This document shows positions 35,518-48,485 of a DNA stretch of 64,000 nucleotides, piece by piece. The stretch is from Actomonas aquatica (GTDB lineage Bacteria > Verrucomicrobiota > Verrucomicrobiia > Opitutales > Opitutaceae). The notes beneath the pieces are model-generated. The model was given only the letters and a program-made list of their open reading frames with translations, had not been told where the DNA came from and made no database searches. The position numbers and the translations under genes are program-made. The stretch spans positions 372,001-436,000 of the forward strand of contig NZ_CP139781.1 of the NCBI RefSeq assembly GCF_019679435.2, given 5' to 3'. Numbering within the stretch: position 1 is the stretch's first letter; every line of letters starts with the position of its first letter.

Positions 35518-37668
<2,151 letters not shown>

Positions 37669-37706
37669 AGCGCCATCACCGGGTAATAGCTTCCCGCATC
37701 CAACCC

Positions 37707-37800
37707 TGTAGGGCCGCACTTGGCGTGCGGCCGCGACAGCGCGATCCATTCTCGATTTGAGAAATCGCCATCGCGGCTCGACGCCAGGGCGAGCCCTACA
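37707..37800. repeat. Long imperfect palindrome, REP/BIME-like
   Basis: The left arm begins TGTAGGGCCGCACTTGGCG and the right arm, read on the other strand, begins TGTAGGGCTCGCCCTGGCG. Each arm is about 30 bases and they flank about 34 bases that contain a smaller palindrome (ATTCTCGATTTGAGAAAT). This is the form of paired REP elements. It lies between mutB and meaB and may weaken or separate their transcription. Confidence 0.65.
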
Positions 37801-37839
37801 TTTGGATTGGGGCAGCTCGGAACGCCGAGAAAGTCAGAC

Positions 37840-39036
37840 ATGAGCGACGACGACCATCACCACCATCACCAAGACGAGAGCTGCCCGCCGCCGAAACCGG
37901 CTACGGAAAAGAAGCCGCCCGTGCAGCGGCACGACGGCTGTCCGCAACCGCGCCCCGATTGGGTGCCGGAGGACGCCACGGGGGGCTTTGCGACCTGGTT
38001 GGTGGAAGGCGTGCGCACGTCGGGCGTGGCGGGCACGGCGCCCAAGCGGCCAGTGCCGCGTCGCCGTCAGCTGAGCGTCAATGACTACGTGGAGGGCGTG
38101 CTGGCGCGCAATCCGATGGTGCTCGGTCGCGCGATCACCTTGGCCGAGAGCAATTCACCGGCGCATCGTGCGCTAGCGCAAGAGGTGCTCACCAAACTGC
38201 TGCCGCACACTGGCAAATCGCGCCGGGTCGGCATCACCGGTATCCCCGGGGCGGGGAAGAGCACCTTCATTGAATCGCTGGGATTTTCGCTCACGTCCAA
38301 TGGCCATCGCGTGGCGGTGTTGGCGATCGATCCATCGAGCACGATCCACGGCGGCAGTATTCTGGCCGACAAGGTGCGCATGGAGAAACTGGGCCGTGAG
38401 CCCAACGCCTTTATTCGCCCGTCTCCCTCCGGTGGTTCACTCGGCGGGGTCGCCCGCAAGACCCGTGAAGCCATCCTGCTGTGTGAAGCGGCTGGATACG
38501 ACGTCGTGATCGTGGAAACGGTCGGCGTCGGGCAAAACGAGGTCACGGTGCGCTCGATGGTCGACATGTTCCTCGTGCTCATGATCGCCGGTGCCGGCGA
38601 CGAAATGCAGGGCATCAAGAAGGGCGTCATCGAGCTGGCGGATTTGTTGGTGATCAACAAAGCCGATGGCGACAACGTGCCGCGCTGCATTGCGGCGCAG
38701 GCGGAAATGAAACGGGTGTTGCACTACCTACAGCGGCCCACCGAGGGCTGGGAACCTCCGGCGGTGTTGGCCTCGGCGCTCACCGGCCGCGGTGTCGACG
38801 ACGTGTGGCGGACCACCGGCGAATTCTTCAAAACCGTCACCTTAACTGGCGGGCTGCAGTCTCGTCGCCGCGCCCAGGCGGTGGAGTGGATGCACTCGCT
38901 CATCCTCGAAAGTCTCAAGGAACGTTTCTACGCCCGCGACGACGTGAAAGCACGTTTGTCCGCGATGGAAAACGCCGTCGCCGACGGCCGCCTCCCCCCG
39001 CTCGCCGCCGCCCTCGACCTGATCGGCAACGGCTGA
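37840..39036 (+). CDS. meaB: Methylmalonyl-CoA mutase GTPase chaperone MeaB
   Basis: The ATG at 37840 gives 398 residues. The G-domain shows GITGIPGAGKSTFIES (P-loop, ~132-147), VETVGVGQNE (switch region) and INKADGD (NKxD, base recognition). MeaB proteins gate cofactor loading and protect the mutase. The gene follows mutB after a REP-like palindrome. The N-terminal ~50 residues are unusual: a run of five His (DDDHHHHHQDE) and a Pro-rich linker, possibly binding metal. Confidence 0.92.
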   Translation: MSDDDHHHHHQDESCPPPKPATEKKPPVQRHDGCPQPRPDWVPEDATGGFATWLVEGVRTSGVAGTAPKRPVPRRRQLSVNDYVEGVLARNPMVLGRAITLAESNSPAHRALAQEVLTKLLPHTGKSRRVGITGIPGAGKSTFIESLGFSLTSNGHRVAVLAIDPSSTIHGGSILADKVRMEKLGREPNAFIRPSPSGGSLGGVARKTREAILLCEAAGYDVVIVETVGVGQNEVTVRSMVDMFLVLMIAGAGDEMQGIKKGVIELADLLVINKADGDNVPRCIAAQAEMKRVLHYLQRPTEGWEPPAVLASALTGRGVDDVWRTTGEFFKTVTLTGGLQSRRRAQAVEWMHSLILESLKERFYARDDVKARLSAMENAVADGRLPPLAAALDLIGNG

Positions 39037-40525: not shown

Positions 40526-41596
40526 TCAGGACCCTGCCGAAACGTCCGGGCAGAAGCCGTAGAGGGCGTCGTCGCGGCCTTTGCCGGGCCAGTTGACTTG
40601 GTCGACGCCGAGGTGGCGCATGACGGTGAAGACGAGGTCGTTGAGGGCGGCTTCGAAACCGAAGATCGAGAGCAGGGGCGGGGCGTCGATTTGGACGACG
40701 TAGGCGCTGGCGCCGACGCCGCGCAGCATGTCGACGCTGCGCTGCACGAGTTCGGCTTCGCCGGGTCCGTTGCCCTGCAGGATAATCGCGGGTTTCGGGT
40801 GCGCGGTCATTTGCTGGAAGGGGCCGTGGGCGAATTGGAGGAAGTCGGAAATCGACGGGCAGTTCCAATATAGGCCTTCCATGAACTTGCAGGCGAGGTT
40901 CTGCGAGTAGTCGGAAATGGGCGCGGCGGTGATGAGGTTGAAGCCGTGAGCGAAGGCGCTGGGCAGTTCACACATGGCGTCGCGCAACCGGGCCGGCGCG
41001 GTAGCCGCGAGCAGCGGCGCGAGCGTGGCCGAGTCGGGCACCTGGAACCGGGAGCAGGAGAGCTGCGTGGCGAATTGCAGGCAGGCAAGGTAACCGGCGA
41101 GCGGACCGACGAAGCGGATGAGCGTGGTGTATTCCTCGGCCAACGGGAATTCGACGAGCTCGCCGCCGGCTTCGAGCAGTTTGCGCAGCAGCTGGGCACG
41201 GTCGGGTTTGCCGGCGGCCTCGGCGGCCTCGGGCGTGGTCGCCGTGAAGAGAATGGTGTGGGCGAAGTCCTGGCCGCGCTGGAGTGCGATCTGCGCGTTG
41301 GGCGAAACACCTTGGGAGAAGACCACGAGGGTTTTGCCGGCGAAGGTGGAGGCGGGGGCGTCGACGAATCCGGAGAGCGGCAAATAGGCGGCGGCGCGAT
41401 CGCTGTGCAGGTTCAGCAGCGTGGCGAGGTAGCGCGCGTGGGCCTCGGAGCTGCCGGTGCCGGTGATGATGAATCGCTGACTGGCGAGGGAGGCCGGTTT
41501 GAGCGGTTTGGGTCCGGCCGCCAGCATGCCGTCCAGGACGGACGGGATCATGGCTAGACGTTGGGCGAGCAGCTCGTGGCCGTGGGGATCAGACAT
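40526..41596 (-). CDS. SIS-domain (phosphosugar-binding) protein
   Basis: The 356-residue protein has the SIS signature IITGTGSSEAHARYLATLL (~42-60) and TLVVFSQGVSPNAQIAL (~93-109), like the isomerase half of glucosamine-6-phosphate synthase but without the amidotransferase domain. Two SIS halves seem present. Such proteins bind or isomerise phosphorylated sugars. It lies about 145 bases from the start side of the tandem cyclohydrolase gene's stop, same strand, so a shared nucleotide or sugar-phosphate role is possible but unproven. Confidence 0.75.
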   Translation of the reverse strand: MSDPHGHELLAQRLAMIPSVLDGMLAAGPKPLKPASLASQRFIITGTGSSEAHARYLATLLNLHSDRAAAYLPLSGFVDAPASTFAGKTLVVFSQGVSPNAQIALQRGQDFAHTILFTATTPEAAEAAGKPDRAQLLRKLLEAGGELVEFPLAEEYTTLIRFVGPLAGYLACLQFATQLSCSRFQVPDSATLAPLLAATAPARLRDAMCELPSAFAHGFNLITAAPISDYSQNLACKFMEGLYWNCPSISDFLQFAHGPFQQMTAHPKPAIILQGNGPGEAELVQRSVDMLRGVGASAYVVQIDAPPLLSIFGFEAALNDLVFTVMRHLGVDQVNWPGKGRDDALYGFCPDVSAGS

Positions 41597-41742: not shown

Positions 41743-43332
41743 TCAGTCGCGGTGGGCTTCGTCGTCGAGGAAGATCCAGCGTTCGACGTCGAGGTGGTGG
41801 CGTTGCAGGGCTTGGGCGTATTCGGTCTTTTTGACCAAGCTGGACGGCGAGTTCATCACCATCTGGATGGTGTTGTTGGGCACGTGCTGTTTGAGCAGCA
41901 CCATCGAGGCGTCGTAGTCGCGGCTGTCGTAGTGCACGCCGAGTCGTTTGTAGGCCTCCTCACTCGAGAGGGCCTGGCTCGACTGCGTGAGCATGAGGTC
42001 GGTGGCGTAAGCACCAAAGCCGGCACCGCGGCCGTCGTTGTAGATGAGTTGGATCACGCCCACGCCGTATTGCACGATGTGTTTGACCGACTGCTTGAGT
42101 TTGTCGCGGTTGCCGAGTTGGCGCAGCGGGAAACGGTTGAAGAGCGACTCACTGTGCAGGCGCACCACCGGGATGTCGTAGGAGCGGGCGTTGCCGTGGG
42201 TGAGGATGACAAACTCCTGACTGGTCACGATGTCGTAGTAGACGTGCACGCGGAACCAGTAGGGCGTCGTGAGGAGATCCACGATGGGGTCCTCGGGATT
42301 GGCCTTTTGAAAAGCTTTGAGGTTTTTGGTGTCGATGGTGACGAAGAAGCGATTGCCCCGGATGAGCTTGTAGTCGCGGATGAGCGGCTGTTCCTCGGCC
42401 ATGTAGTCCTCGATCTTTTTGTCGGCGAAGATGGTTTTGAACTCCTCGGCATTCAGCAGCACCTCGTCGTCGACCGGCTTCATCGGCAGGAAGTAGCTCG
42501 CGGAGTAGATGAAGCGAGTAGCCTCAGGCACGGCGTGGGGTTTGAAGGGCACGACGGGCTCGGGCGGGAGGGCGCGTTTGACGAGGGTTTCGGCCGGACG
42601 GTTGAGGATGTGGCCGCTGGCGGCCTTGGACGTCAGGTAGGCAAGGTTGAAGGGCGAGGGTTCAAACTCGAGCGTCTCGGTATCCACGACCTTGATACCT
42701 TGGTCGCGGAGGGCGGACACTTTGTCGGGATTGTTGGTGAGGACGATGAACGGTGCCTTGATGCCGAGCAGCAAGCAGATGTCGGAAATGTTGTCGTAGT
42801 TGCGGTGGTCCTTCTTGAGGCCCATCGAGGCGTAGGCCTGGAAGGTGGAGAGCTGGTCGAGGGAGGCCTGCACCATCATGCGGTCGCGGGATTTGCCCAC
42901 GTAGCCGACACCGCGGCCTTCCTGCATGAGGTAGAAGAGGATTCCGTTGCCCTTCTCGGCGATGACCTTGAAGGCGCCTTCGAGCTGCTGCACGCAGTCG
43001 CAATCGCAGCCGCGGAGGGTCTCGCTGGTCACGCAGGAGGAGTGCAGGCGAGTGTAGAGCAGCTCGGCATCGGCAATGTCACCATGCGCGAGGGCGATGA
43101 TGTAGTGCTTGTCGATGATGTCTTGGAAAATGTGGGTGCGGAACGGGCCGAAACGGGTCTCCAGATTGCAGGTCGCGACATAGAGCGTCGTGCCATGCAG
43201 CGGGCGGTCCTGGGTGGGCTCGCTGTCGTGGGCGACCGCGCCGAAGGTATGCTGCATCTCCGCAACCAGACGCTGAAACTCGTCGGGAATATTGGCAAAG
43301 GTGGCGGTCGGTGCGGTGGTTTCGGTGGACAT
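41743..43332 (-). CDS. Tandem GTP cyclohydrolase II-like protein (529 aa)
   Basis: Residues ~50-215 are a GTP cyclohydrolase II domain: zinc ligands Cys100, Cys111 and Cys113 (LHSSC and CDCDC), QEGRGVGY (~138-145) and the late LTNNPDKV. Residues ~320-520 are a second, diverged copy: RLHSES and NDGRGAGFGAYATD align to the same elements, but the zinc cysteines are gone. The usual AY of the AYxLQD motif is lost in the first copy (RMMVQAS) and AY-like only in the second. The classical riboflavin enzyme is ~200 residues. The uracil-catabolic Urc1 proteins are known divergent relatives. The neighbouring purine-type permease suggests a purine or pyrimidine ring-opening role rather than riboflavin synthesis; this is inference. 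Confidence 0.82.
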   Translation of the reverse strand: MSTETTAPTATFANIPDEFQRLVAEMQHTFGAVAHDSEPTQDRPLHGTTLYVATCNLETRFGPFRTHIFQDIIDKHYIIALAHGDIADAELLYTRLHSSCVTSETLRGCDCDCVQQLEGAFKVIAEKGNGILFYLMQEGRGVGYVGKSRDRMMVQASLDQLSTFQAYASMGLKKDHRNYDNISDICLLLGIKAPFIVLTNNPDKVSALRDQGIKVVDTETLEFEPSPFNLAYLTSKAASGHILNRPAETLVKRALPPEPVVPFKPHAVPEATRFIYSASYFLPMKPVDDEVLLNAEEFKTIFADKKIEDYMAEEQPLIRDYKLIRGNRFFVTIDTKNLKAFQKANPEDPIVDLLTTPYWFRVHVYYDIVTSQEFVILTHGNARSYDIPVVRLHSESLFNRFPLRQLGNRDKLKQSVKHIVQYGVGVIQLIYNDGRGAGFGAYATDLMLTQSSQALSSEEAYKRLGVHYDSRDYDASMVLLKQHVPNNTIQMVMNSPSSLVKKTEYAQALQRHHLDVERWIFLDDEAHRD

Positions 43333-43451: not shown

Positions 43452-44789
43452 TCAGCCCGAGAACGGAAAGATCTCGAAGAACTGGAGGAAGAAGATCGCG
43501 GCGATGATGTAGCCGACGGTGGGGAAGGTCTTGGGTTTGCCGCTGGCGAGAGCGAGCAAGGCCGCGCTGATGAGGCCGAAGCCGATGCCCTCGGCAATGC
43601 TGAAGGTGAGCGGAATGCAGAGGATGATGAGCATGGCGGGAGCCGCGACGCGGAAGTCGTCCATTTTGATCTCTGTCACCGATTGCAGCATGAAGATGCC
43701 CACCACCACGAGGGCAGGCGCCGTGGCCGCGGCGGGGATGGCGAGGATGATGGGGGTGAGAAAGAGGGCGAGCAGCATGAGCACTCCCACGGTGACAGCG
43801 GTAAGGCCGGTGCGGCCGCCGGCTTCAACGCCGGAGGCGGACTCGATGTAGCTCACGACGGTGGAGGTGCCGAAGAGGGAGCTGAGGATGGCGGCGATGG
43901 AATCGGCGACGAGAGCGTTACCGGCTTTGGGCAGGTTGCCGTCTTTGTCGAGCAGACCGGCGCGTTTCGTCACGCCGATGAGTGTGCCGATGTTGTCGAA
44001 CATATCGACCAACAGGAGCGTGAGGATGAGCGGCAGGGCGACTTGAAAGGCCGACCAAGACGAGAGGAAACCGAACTCCAGTTGCAGGAACACCGGACTG
44101 GGATCGGACGGCATGGCGAACCACGACTCGGGCAACGCGGTGACTTTGCCGCCGTTGCCGTCGGGGATGAACAGGCCGATGATCGAGGTGACGACGATGC
44201 CGATGATGATGGCGGCGGGCACCCCGCGGGCGACGAGCAGGATCGTGAGGGCGATGCCGATGAGGCAGACGAGCGCGGGGCCCGAGGTGAAGTCACCGTG
44301 CGTGACATAGGTGGCCGGGCTCGCGACGATGATGCCGCCGTTTTTTAAACCGATGAAGGCGATGAACAGGCCGATGCCGCAAGTGATCGCGATCTTAAGC
44401 GAGTAGGGGATGGCGCGGACGATTTTCTCGCGCACGCCGGTCACGGAGAGGGCGAGGAAGATGAAGCCGTTCACAAACACCATGCCGAGGGCCTGTTGCC
44501 AGGGGACGCCGGCGCCGATGCAGATCGAGTAGGTGAAGAAGGCGTTGATACCCATGCCCGGAGCGAGCGCCAACGGGAAGTTGGTCAGGGCCGCCATCAG
44601 GAACGTAGCGACGGCGGCGGTGAGCGCAGTGACGGTGACCAGGGCGGCGCGGTCCATACCAGCGTCGGCCAGAATGCTGGGGTTCACCGCCAGGATGTAG
44701 GCCATGGCGGCGAAGGTGGTGAGGCCGGCCTGGAGTTCGCGGGAAACGGTGGTGCCGTGGTCGGTGAGCTTGAACAGTCGATTCAGCAT
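43452..44789 (-). CDS. NCS2-family (AzgA-type) purine permease
   Basis: The 445-residue protein has about 12-14 membrane helices. The start (LFKLTDHGTTVSRELQAGLTTF) and ILAVNPSIL are typical of AzgA/PbuG-type adenine, guanine or hypoxanthine H+ symporters. Substrate choice between purines cannot be made by eye. It is transcribed toward the cyclohydrolase-like gene and diverges from the amidohydrolase gene. It supports a nucleobase theme in this region. Confidence 0.88.
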   Translation of the reverse strand: MLNRLFKLTDHGTTVSRELQAGLTTFAAMAYILAVNPSILADAGMDRAALVTVTALTAAVATFLMAALTNFPLALAPGMGINAFFTYSICIGAGVPWQQALGMVFVNGFIFLALSVTGVREKIVRAIPYSLKIAITCGIGLFIAFIGLKNGGIIVASPATYVTHGDFTSGPALVCLIGIALTILLVARGVPAAIIIGIVVTSIIGLFIPDGNGGKVTALPESWFAMPSDPSPVFLQLEFGFLSSWSAFQVALPLILTLLLVDMFDNIGTLIGVTKRAGLLDKDGNLPKAGNALVADSIAAILSSLFGTSTVVSYIESASGVEAGGRTGLTAVTVGVLMLLALFLTPIILAIPAAATAPALVVVGIFMLQSVTEIKMDDFRVAAPAMLIILCIPLTFSIAEGIGFGLISAALLALASGKPKTFPTVGYIIAAIFFLQFFEIFPFSG

Positions 44790-44830: not shown

Positions 44831-45799
44831 ATGAAACGCCTCAGCAATGACGGTGCCAAAGGGGCCGCAGGATTGCGGGTTGCGGCGGGACCGGCAACGC
44901 ATGATTTTGAAGGTGTGCGAGTTATCGACGCTCATGTGCATTTATATCCACCGCAGATAAATGCGGATCCGGCCGGTTGGGCGGCGGCGGCCGGTGAGCC
45001 GCATTGGGCGACGCTCTGCACACGGGTGCGGCCGGGCGGGCGCGCGGTGCAGGGGTTCCCGTCGGTGGACACCCTGCTGCGCGACATGGATGCGGCCGGC
45101 GTCGATGAGGCCGTGTTGCTCGGCTGGTATTGGCAAACGGTGGCGGCGACGGAATTGCAGAACCGGTTTTTTGAAGAGGTGGTGGCGGCGCATCCGGATC
45201 GGCTGCGGGCCTGCGGGACCTGGCATCCGGCGATGGGCGTTGGGCCACTGGCGAGCTTTCGGGAGCGCGGGTTTGTCGGGATCGGCGAGCTGTCGCCGCA
45301 CAGCATCGGGTATGGCGAAGGCGACGTCGCGGCTTGGGCGGAGCTATTTGCGGCGGCGGGCAAGCTGGGCCTGCCAGTCAATCTGCACGTGACGGATCCG
45401 CGGTCGCGGCCATTTCCCGGGAAGGTGGAGACGCCGTTGCGGGACTTCGTGGGCTGGGCGCGGCAGTTTCCGCAAACGACCTTTGTGTTGGCCCACGGTG
45501 GGGGGCGGATGCCGTGGTTTAAGCCGGACGTGCTGCGCCTGCCGAATGTGGTGTTTGATATGGCGGCGTTTCCGCTGCTGTATCCGCCGCCGTCGTTGGA
45601 TGCCTGGGTGGCGCAGTGCCGACCGGGGAAGCTGTTGTGGGGCTCGGACCATCCGCTCAACTTGTATCCGCGGAGCGGTGACGACGAAGCCGCCAGCCTG
45701 GCGGCTTGGCGGCGGGAGATGGTCGAGGCCGGGTTTGGCGACGAGGTGCGCGACGCGCTGCTCGGAGGCAACGCGTCGCGGGTGTATGCGCGGCGCTGA
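44831..45799 (+). CDS. Amidohydrolase (metal-dependent TIM-barrel hydrolase)
   Basis: AGGGACGGAA precedes the ATG. The 322-residue protein has IDAHVHLYP (HxH metal site, ~33-41), a His at INLHVTD-like PVNLHVTDP, ALAHGGG-like VLAHGGGRMPW and the terminal Asp in LLWGSDHPLN. That matches the amidohydrolase-2 family (decarboxylases and hydrolases acting on small ring compounds or lactones). The start lies 41 bases from the divergent permease start. A catabolic substrate is likely, but not identifiable. Confidence 0.82.
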   Translation: MKRLSNDGAKGAAGLRVAAGPATHDFEGVRVIDAHVHLYPPQINADPAGWAAAAGEPHWATLCTRVRPGGRAVQGFPSVDTLLRDMDAAGVDEAVLLGWYWQTVAATELQNRFFEEVVAAHPDRLRACGTWHPAMGVGPLASFRERGFVGIGELSPHSIGYGEGDVAAWAELFAAAGKLGLPVNLHVTDPRSRPFPGKVETPLRDFVGWARQFPQTTFVLAHGGGRMPWFKPDVLRLPNVVFDMAAFPLLYPPPSLDAWVAQCRPGKLLWGSDHPLNLYPRSGDDEAASLAAWRREMVEAGFGDEVRDALLGGNASRVYARR

Positions 45800-45802
45800 G
45801 TC

Positions 45803-46597
45803 CTAGCGCACCAGCGTGATGGCGATGGGCTCGGGGACGGTGGCGGCGACGACTGCGCGGTAGCCGTCCTGGTCGGAGAAGGCCGACTTGGCGATGGTGC
45901 GGCGCGGGAGCTGGCAGTTGATTTCGTCGGTGGCAAAAGGCCAGGGCGAGATGCGCCAAGTGGTCGGACCGAGGGGAGTGCAGGTGAGGGGATGCAGCTT
46001 ACCGTCGCGATCGGGGTGCTGATGGCGCAACTCACGGGGGGAGTCGTAACCGGAGCAGACGATGAGCGAGAGGTTGTCGCAGCATTGCAGGAACTCGAAG
46101 CCGCGTTGCATGGCGGCCGGATCCGCACCGTGTTCCTTGATGGTGGCTTCCTGCCACGCGCGTTGCGCGGCGATAAAGGTCTCATAGGCCTCACGATGCT
46201 CGGGTCGGATGGAGTCCACGTCGGCTTGTTCGGTGAGCAGGTTCACCGTGTGCATGGACACCATCACGGCGGCGAGGGGATCCTGTTTGGCGACGGCGGC
46301 GGTGGCTTCGGCGCGCACGTTGAGATAGGACGGCAGATCGATTTCCTCGAAGGCGGAGTAGGCGCCGACGAGGTCGCGGGTGAAGGCCTCGGGTTTGCCG
46401 GCGGGCGTGAGGCTCGGCTTAGCGTCGCGGGCGATCCAGCCATCGTCGTGGTGATACACCGCGTGGCGAATCGGGGGAAAGGGGGCGGGGCGGCCGAATT
46501 GGTCGTTGCCCCACGCGTCGGCGAATTCACCGGCGAGTTGGGCGTGATCGGGATGGGTGATGAGCACCCATGAGTCATCCGTTTCTGCGCGAATCAT
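45803..46597 (-). CDS. DUF3891 family protein
   Basis: The 264-residue protein starts MIRAETDDSWVLITHPDHAQLAGEFADAWG and has HHDDGW, a His/Asp cluster reminiscent of HD-type or metal-dependent hydrolases, plus VSMHTVNLL in the middle. These are typical of DUF3891, whose function is unknown. It converges with the amidohydrolase gene three bases away. A metal-bound hydrolase is a guess from the His/Asp cluster. Confidence 0.75.
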   Translation of the reverse strand: MIRAETDDSWVLITHPDHAQLAGEFADAWGNDQFGRPAPFPPIRHAVYHHDDGWIARDAKPSLTPAGKPEAFTRDLVGAYSAFEEIDLPSYLNVRAEATAAVAKQDPLAAVMVSMHTVNLLTEQADVDSIRPEHREAYETFIAAQRAWQEATIKEHGADPAAMQRGFEFLQCCDNLSLIVCSGYDSPRELRHQHPDRDGKLHPLTCTPLGPTTWRISPWPFATDEINCQLPRRTIAKSAFSDQDGYRAVVAATVPEPIAITLVR

Positions 46598-46634: not shown

Positions 46635-47897
46635 TCAGCAGCTTTCGCACCGGCTCAGCACCCAATCCAGCGCGGCGCTGTGGCGGCTGGGGAAGACGAT
46701 GTGCACACCGAGGCTGAAACCATTCGGCAGCGGCACCGGCACGGTGAGCGCGGGCAGGCCGGCGAGAGAGACCGGGGTGGTAAAGTCGAGCAACGCGTCG
46801 CGCAGGCTTTGATCGAGCGCGCCGGTCGGCGGTGAGGGTTGGGTGGAGACGGGGAGAATGAGGAAGTCGTAGTCCTCGAAGGTGCGGGCGAAGGCGAGGC
46901 GCACGCGCATCGCTTTAACTTGAGCGTCGTCGACCTGAGCGGCGGTCCAGCGGCGCCCGCGATCAATGCGGCCCCAGACCGCTTCGCCGTAGTCGTCGCG
47001 GTGGCGGTCGAGGTCATCCTGGTGGACAGCGTAGGCCTCGGTGCTTTGCAGGATGCTGTAAGCCGCGTTGGTGCCTTTGAAGGTGCGGCAGAGCAGGTCG
47101 TCGGCCGCGAGGGTTTCGCTGGTGAAGCGGGCGGCGGTCTCATCCAGCGCCGCCGCGTAATAGTCTCGCGGTGTGACGCCGAAAACGGAGGGCGGCACCC
47201 AGGCGCCGCGCGGAGTTTGCGCACTGGTCGGAAACGTCCCCCGCAGTGCGGTGTGTAAGGTCCGCAGATCGGTCGCGCTACGCGTGAGCCAACCGGCGGT
47301 GTCGAAACTGGGCGCGAGCGGAAAGGCGTCGGCGATGAAGGCGTGATGCGGCGTCTCGCGCCAGCTGTAGAGACCGCAGAATGCGGCCGGCACGCGGAGC
47401 GAGCCGCCGGTGTCGGTGCCGAGGGCGAAAGGCACCAAGCCGGCGGCGACGGCGGCAGCGGAGCCACTGGACGAGCCGCCGGCATCGTGACCGGGAAAGT
47501 GCGGATGCTCCACCTGGCCGTAGTGCTGGTTCTCGCCGGTGAGGCCGTAGGCGAATTCGTGCAGGTGGGTTTTGCCGACCGGGATGGCGCCGAGGGCGCG
47601 CAGGCGGGCGACGAGGGTGCCGTCGGCTTTGGGGCGACGCGGACGTAGGATGCCGCCGCTGCGAGTGGGCTGACCGGCGAGGTGAAAGAGGTCTTTGATG
47701 GCGAACGGCACACCACGCAGCGGCAGTGCGGTGTCATCGATTGCTGCAGCCGCGGCAGTCCAAGCGGAGGAGTCGGGGGGCGTCGCCCAGATGGCAGCTT
47801 GTTGAGCGGTGGGGAGCGCGGCACAGCGCTCGCGAAAGATGGCGGCTGGGGCGGAGGGATCGGTATCGAAACGGGATTGCCAAGCGGCGAAGTCCAT
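46635..47897 (-). CDS. Amidase-signature hydrolase
   Basis: The ATG at 47897 gives 420 residues. The Ser-cisSer-Lys triad is visible: Lys in PFAIKDLF (~66), cis-Ser in GGSSSGS (~142-148) and the nucleophile in GTDTGGSLR (~166). Family members cleave amides such as allophanate, urethanes or aryl amides. Substrate is unknown; proximity to RidA and nucleobase-type genes would suit a nitrogen-releasing step. Confidence 0.88.
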   Translation of the reverse strand: MDFAAWQSRFDTDPSAPAAIFRERCAALPTAQQAAIWATPPDSSAWTAAAAAIDDTALPLRGVPFAIKDLFHLAGQPTRSGGILRPRRPKADGTLVARLRALGAIPVGKTHLHEFAYGLTGENQHYGQVEHPHFPGHDAGGSSSGSAAAVAAGLVPFALGTDTGGSLRVPAAFCGLYSWRETPHHAFIADAFPLAPSFDTAGWLTRSATDLRTLHTALRGTFPTSAQTPRGAWVPPSVFGVTPRDYYAAALDETAARFTSETLAADDLLCRTFKGTNAAYSILQSTEAYAVHQDDLDRHRDDYGEAVWGRIDRGRRWTAAQVDDAQVKAMRVRLAFARTFEDYDFLILPVSTQPSPPTGALDQSLRDALLDFTTPVSLAGLPALTVPVPLPNGFSLGVHIVFPSRHSAALDWVLSRCESC

Positions 47898-48023: not shown

Positions 48024-48485
48024 ATGGATCCTGAAGCCAAACTTGCAGAACTCGGTCTGGAATTGCCGCCTCCCCCGGCGGCCGGTGGCAACTACCTGCC
48101 CTATGTGCGGACGGGTAACTTGGTTTACTGTGCCGGCGCCATTTCGGTGCGCAACGGCGAGATGACTCACACGGGTCAGGTCGGTGCCGAGCAGACGGTC
48201 GAAACCGGTTATGAGTCCGCCAAGGTGTGCGCGCTCAATACGCTGGCGGTGCTCAAGTCAGCCCTCGGTTCGCTGAGCAAGGTCAAGCGCCTCGTCTACG
48301 TGGGCGGCTACGTGAACGGCGTGTCCGGTTTTGCGGACAGCCCGGCCGTGGTGAACGGCGCCAGCGACCTCTACATCGAGGTGTTTGGTGACGCGGGCCG
48401 CCATGCCCGTGCGGCCGTCGCGGTGGCGGGTCTGCCCAAGGACTCCACCGTGGAGATTCAGATCGTGGCCGAAGCTGCGGAGTAA
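48024..48485 (+). CDS. RidA/YjgF family protein
   Basis: The ATG at 48024 gives 153 residues beginning MDPEAKLAELGLELPPPPAA, which matches the longer RidA-like subgroup; the frame extends upstream into non-homologous sequence. NYLPYVRTGNLVYCAGA and the conserved Arg region (GRHARAAVAVAGLP) fit imine/enamine deaminases. It diverges from the amidase gene and is followed by a bidirectional terminator. Confidence 0.88.
   Translation: MDPEAKLAELGLELPPPPAAGGNYLPYVRTGNLVYCAGAISVRNGEMTHTGQVGAEQTVETGYESAKVCALNTLAVLKSALGSLSKVKRLVYVGGYVNGVSGFADSPAVVNGASDLYIEVFGDAGRHARAAVAVAGLPKDSTVEIQIVAEAAE

Follow-up and report, generated by a model that had tools for sequence, protein, structure and literature searches.

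UTP cyclohydrolase (Urc1) uses a domain of the GTP cyclohydrolase II (GCHII) type for a catabolic, nucleotide-level ring opening in uracil breakdown (work cited in PMC12507026). It may be regarded as the closest working analogue of the tandem protein described here, being alike in logic while failing in membership. Its chain (structures 7eev and 7ej3) is likewise made up of two parts, one of them a GCHII-type domain; however, its extra domain is N-terminal and belongs to another family, and its sequence similarity to the tandem is much weaker. A second relevant case is a GCHII paralogue of Streptomyces coelicolor, which, changed at the position of Tyr105 of Escherichia coli RibA, reportedly makes a formylated product. 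This single-domain protein, from work by Spoonamore et al. in 2006 (cited in PMC3509567), reportedly has Met at that position, where the tandem has Arg, and is not known to have a SIS partner. RibBX of Acinetobacter baumannii (6mnz) has two domains, as does RibBA of the genomes studied here, and its GCHII-related second domain is inactive. In RibBX this domain is fused to RibB, whereas in the tandem a degenerate copy is fused to a GCHII domain predicted to be active. The isomerase domain of GlmS, NagB-II and the deglycases FrlB and FraB form a class that acts on amino-sugar phosphates, with the same fold as the protein encoded next to the tandem at an identity of about 10-15%. Finally, the formamidases BrbF, of the creatininase family, and ArfB deformylate the formylated GCH product and serve riboflavin synthesis, and a creatininase-family enzyme removes the formyl group of the ring-opened GTP product in Sinorhizobium (PMC9478397).

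The window, a stretch of 64,000 nucleotides of Actomonas aquatica (positions 372,001 to 436,000 of contig NZ_CP139781.1), encodes on its minus strand a 529-residue protein (41743..43332) in which a single Pfam family, GTP_cyclohydro2 (PF00925), is matched twice, at 130.8 and 48.2 bits. The whole protein scores 173.6 bits against a cut-off of 23.3, which places it within the GCHII family. The tandem architecture is not a product of chance, since 60 distinct full-length homologues, 50-84% identical to the window protein, can be aligned end to end, and all 60 match PF00925 in the profile search. Conservation is given below as counts in the alignment of these 60 tandem sequences (A1). The protein does not reach the cut-off of the RibA equivalog model TIGR00505 (149.5 vs 205.85 bits) and passes that of the broader RibA subfamily model NF001591 (184.7 vs 148). 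The full-length tandem is conserved at more than 80 Verrucomicrobiota loci; 106 were found in a species-level genome collection, 80 of which were kept. About a third of 57 near relatives have the tandem as a long match, as do 14 of the 288 genomes in a phylum-wide draw from Verrucomicrobiota (12 inside the order Opitutales and two in one other family), and no plasmid record covered 80% of the query. Some genomes carry two copies (L021/L037, L024/L035 and G012), and the presence of the SIS gene beside only one of the two in G012 suggests two tandem subfamilies. Partial matches in separate frames at G099:C1:483104-484124 represent a decaying duplicate, an intact copy being found elsewhere in that genome.

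The N-terminal half (residues 1-250; 42583..43332, minus strand) is a zinc-intact GCHII domain. In the AlphaFold model of the tandem (pLDDT 85.7) it superimposes on E. coli RibA (2bz0) with Z 19.6 and an rmsd of 1.7 Å over 173 residues, at 36% identity. All of R49, C54, C65, C67, E92, R94, D126, R128, T149 and K154 of RibA are matched in this half, and the equivalents R95, C100, C111, C113, E138, R140, D175, R177, T199 and K204 are invariant (60/60). In RibA the zinc is held by cysteines, and Arg128 has been proposed to contact the alpha phosphate for release of pyrophosphate (PMC10366380). The conservation of both the zinc cysteines and the Arg128-type set thus suggests, as far as sequence can tell, that the substrate is a nucleoside triphosphate. 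The first-pass annotation had read the first half as keeping the zinc cysteines and lacking the AY pair of the GCHII motif. Indeed, C100, C111 and C113 are retained, while RAYAL of RibA is replaced by RDRMM in a stretch that aligns without gaps. The position of the catalytic Tyr105 is thereby occupied by Arg151, in 60/60 sequences. In the comparison with UTP cyclohydrolase, the placement of the latter's Tyr105 equivalent is ambiguous owing to a 5-residue insertion. The tandem departs from RibA in the exchange of Tyr105 for Arg, in the fused degenerate second GCHII copy and in its purine/SIS context. Two residues ahead of the CxC zinc pair (GCDCDC), 57 of the 60 proteins have a further cysteine, C109, which E. 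coli RibA lacks and which may affect metal binding.

Directly downstream of the tandem (40526..41596, minus strand) lies a gene for a 356-residue SIS-fold, phosphosugar isomerase/deglycase-like protein. It remains below the cut-off of the Pfam SIS family PF01380 (13.1 vs 25 bits), and comparison of its profile by HHalign with the individual GlmS and FrlB sequences of E. coli gave no significant match; the fold assignment is therefore carried by structure comparison. The AlphaFold model (pLDDT 94.4) displays a double-SIS fold with Z values of 21-29 over about 290-340 residues: 29.1 for NagB-II and Lmo0035, about 28 for GlmS isomerase domains and 21.8 for FrlB. E240, H257 and G258 are present in 45/45 homologues and P259 in 43/45, an arrangement shared with FrlB, where Glu is followed by His-Gly-Pro 16-17 residues on. 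E240 and H257 are at the positions expected for a catalytic Glu/His pair, as predicted from the HGP motif rather than from a significant alignment to FrlB or GlmS. When genomes were searched whole, the gene was recovered in 19/20 tandem-positive and 0/19 tandem-negative relatives (Fisher p 3e-10, with kinship ignored), and coordinates place it next to the tandem in each of the 19; the remaining positive, G009, yielded no SIS gene in the search. This co-occurrence with constant adjacency is the strongest single clue that the two proteins act together, and the nature of the partner suggests that a sugar phosphate is detached from an amine, a step required once the ring of a nucleotide has been opened.

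The further surroundings have the character of purine scavenging. Linked-gene counts over the 80 loci are floors, because many contigs are short, and both flanks are present at 35/80 only. Directly upstream of the tandem is an NCS2/AzgA-type purine permease (43452..44789, minus strand; PF00860, E 2.7e-46; 24/80 loci), which we take to belong to the AzgA clade. It is followed by an Amidohydrolase_2 family protein (44831..45799, plus strand; PF04909; 16/80), a DUF3891 protein (45803..46597, minus strand; PF13030; 9/80), an amidase-signature hydrolase resembling AtzE and allophanate hydrolase, with its start placed at the Met of MDFAAW (46635..47897, minus strand; PF01425, E 6.9e-65; 18/80), and a RidA/YjgF-family protein with its start placed at MDPEAKL (48024..48485, plus strand; PF14588/PF01042; 18/80). 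Elsewhere, tandem loci include adenosine deaminase (17/80), adenine deaminase (7/80), a nucleoside phosphorylase family protein (NUP; 16/80), a nucleosidase (5/80), an HGPRT-like phosphoribosyltransferase (12/80), a PRK07213-like amidohydrolase (6/80), formamidase (4/80), FAH (4/80) and, by clustering, a TonB receptor (20/80). Creatininases, the family to which BrbF belongs, occur at 6/80 loci; these are however nearest to other subfamilies and match ArfB weakly. Cerasicoccus maritimus has, within its tandem cluster, a FAA-hydrolase domain fused to an amidase (L075:10439-12532), the two being separate neighbouring genes in L037. Adjoining the region, at 35518-39036 of the window, a methylmalonyl-CoA mutase-like gene and then a MeaB/ArgK-like GTPase gene were read by eye.

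The downstream genes are clustered with the tandem only in part of the family. Amidohydrolase and formamidase nevertheless track it across genomes, even when unlinked, the former in 16/20 positives vs 2/19 negatives and the latter in 15/20 vs 3/19. In the present genome they are dispersed (C1:1505310 and C1:1142457, respectively) and not clustered. The phosphoribosyltransferase is evident in no more than roughly half of the tandem positives. A search of 20 tandem genomes for uricase, in which the controls worked, detected none. Molybdo-hydroxylase relatives of xanthine dehydrogenase were matched in 10/20, so a partial classical purine route, including its first step, may run alongside.

Aggregated, we consider the tandem to be a neofunctionalised GCHII, a purine-nucleotide ring-opening hydrolase that starts a nucleotide-level route of purine breakdown, with a probability of roughly 50%. 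From conservation, folds, linkage and co-occurrence we infer a substrate, a product, an order of steps and a role for the C-terminal half. Purine bases imported by the permease would, after deamination and phosphoribosylation, feed the pool of triphosphates. One of the purine nucleoside triphosphates, GTP or perhaps XTP/ITP, would be bound together with zinc by the N half, with the conserved Arg177 bringing about pyrophosphate release and the zinc-bound half hydrolysing the imidazole ring. With an invariant Arg in place of Tyr105, the reaction would probably yield a formylated ring-opened nucleotide or a derivative, and not the riboflavin precursor; this effect of the exchange is ascribed by way of the Streptomyces paralogue, as reportedly found. 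The SIS enzyme would then cleave the ribosylamine C-N bond, so that pentose phosphate is returned and the aminopyrimidine set free; from the latter, relatives of creatininase/formamidase, amidohydrolase, RidA and amidase would strip the remaining formate and ammonia. The whole could be seen as a purine counterpart analogous to the Urc1/UTP cyclohydrolase route without being a member of it. The complete pathway, with a tandem GCHII opening a purine nucleoside triphosphate, a dedicated SIS deglycase recovering the ribose phosphate, and neither xanthine dehydrogenase nor uric acid on the way, is put forward more tentatively, at slightly less than even odds, as undescribed in Verrucomicrobiota. 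The reading offered in the first-pass annotation is supported in its direction, towards a GCHII relative with a changed catalytic residue, set among purine-scavenging genes and unlikely to serve riboflavin; its composite active site and its pyrimidine chemistry are not supported.

GCHII relatives start several biosynthetic routes, and the tandem could accordingly open a ring towards a pteridine- or deazaflavin-like or other nitrogen-rich product instead of initiating breakdown. Congruent with this, creatininase-family deformylases work in flavin synthesis (PMC9478397). However, the linked adenosine and adenine deaminases, nucleosidases, permease, TonB receptors, amidase and FAH have the look of uptake and breakdown, and no ligase, methyltransferase or synthase was prominent in a non-exhaustive clustering of neighbours. 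Taken together, a biosynthetic ring-opener seems rather unlikely.

We also judge it unlikely that the tandem supplies GCHII activity for riboflavin, although the state of RibBA lends this a certain appeal. A normal ribA elsewhere in the genome, as the first-pass annotation had allowed for, did not emerge from a search: the only other GCHII-family protein is RibBA (L118:1431-2567; G000:C1 about 701930-703066), whose GCHII part lacks all three zinc cysteines, E92 and R94, as it does in 17 other tandem-positive genomes. The zinc cysteines are thus gone in 18/19 tandem-positive genomes with a second GCHII-family protein. The N half of the tandem is the sole zinc-intact GCHII domain in this genome and in those 17, and G045 has the tandem and no other PF00925 match, so that the tandem could have replaced the degenerate domain. 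The one exception, G204, has however an intact RibBA together with the tandem. Furthermore, the same zinc-less RibBA is found in 26/27 tandem-negative genomes with a PF00925 match (exception G022), which have no PF00925 protein besides RibBA; two further tandem-negative genomes gave no PF00925 match at all. At many RibBA loci of both groups (L118, L122-L182) ribH lies beside the degenerate gene, while none of the 80 tandem loci showed a rib gene nearby, be it ribD, ribH or ribC. The invariant Arg in place of Tyr105 also speaks against this role. Judged from these sequences, canonical GCHII has disappeared across the family whether or not a genome has the tandem, and the tandem does not explain the riboflavin supply of the family: the gap is independent of it, because 26/27 tandem-negatives share the zinc-less RibBA and ribH adjoins in both groups. 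Thus, a riboflavin role for the tandem is possible but unnecessary.

The C-terminal half (residues 251-529; 41746..42582, minus strand; PF00925 48.2 bits) carries an inserted segment at about residues 290-355 and was proposed, as one of two possibilities, to complement the first half in one composite active site. That it is devoid of cysteines and has the GRGAGF and GAYATD motifs was confirmed. C54, C67, T149 and K154 of RibA are replaced by S, N, M and S, respectively, and the C65 position is also substituted. The positions of R49, R94, D126 and R128 are kept in this half as in the N half, by which it may still touch the nucleotide or complete an interface. R391, D433, R435, D469 and R471 are present in 58/60 sequences and W519 in 60/60; W519, H363, G434 and G438 are invariant in A1. 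VIA-align listed no match of the C half to GCHII structures, but with so long a chain its listing is biased towards the N half, and the lack of a match says little. With the register anchored on the shared GR motif, Y442 of the supposed second AY pair falls opposite K101 of E. coli RibA, four residues before Tyr105, and its column varies across the 60 sequences (Y 29, H 23, F 7, M 1); at the Tyr105 position proper, the window protein has L446 and most homologues R. The 'split' tyrosine is thus, on this alignment, an accident of the window sequence, and the C half a degenerate copy under selection and not the donor of the missing tyrosine. Being out of register and not conserved, the AY pair leaves the composite site unsupported, and with the complete zinc and phosphate residue set already in the N half we consider such a site very unlikely; under the purine ring-opening reading, the C half would most likely be a non-catalytic copy completing a dimer-like unit within one chain.

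That the tandem opens UTP in the manner of Urc1, as the annotation had also suggested, is highly improbable: the structures 7eev and 7ej3 do appear among the fold matches of the model, but in the profile comparison UTP cyclohydrolase scores 25.5 bits vs 137 for RibA, the N-terminal domain of Urc1 (which we take to be PF12471) is matched in 0/60 members, only PF00925 being found at E <= 0.01 in Pfam, DUF1688 (Urc4, PF07958) was detected in none of 20 tandem genomes, a weak point as the controls gave no signal either, and the genes around the tandem belong to purine rather than uracil metabolism.

A literature search on tandem GCHII proteins, purine routes of Verrucomicrobia and diaminouracil catabolism, which reached subscription papers only in small part, returned nothing on point, and a nucleotide-level purine breakdown route via the tandem appears to be undescribed so far. 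The data separate, within one family, two roles usually credited to annotations of 'GTP cyclohydrolase II'. Automatic annotation would call the tandem RibA and the degenerate RibBA bifunctional, and neither label seems right. With the zinc site of RibBA gone across the family, the source of the riboflavin precursor in these bacteria moreover becomes a directly testable question. If the purine ring-opening reading is true, the tandem would represent a second nucleotide-level ring-opening catabolic route, after that of UTP cyclohydrolase for uracil and now for purines, and a function could be given to a module of two genes conserved in Verrucomicrobiota, a phylum of which many members are known from environmental genomes alone.
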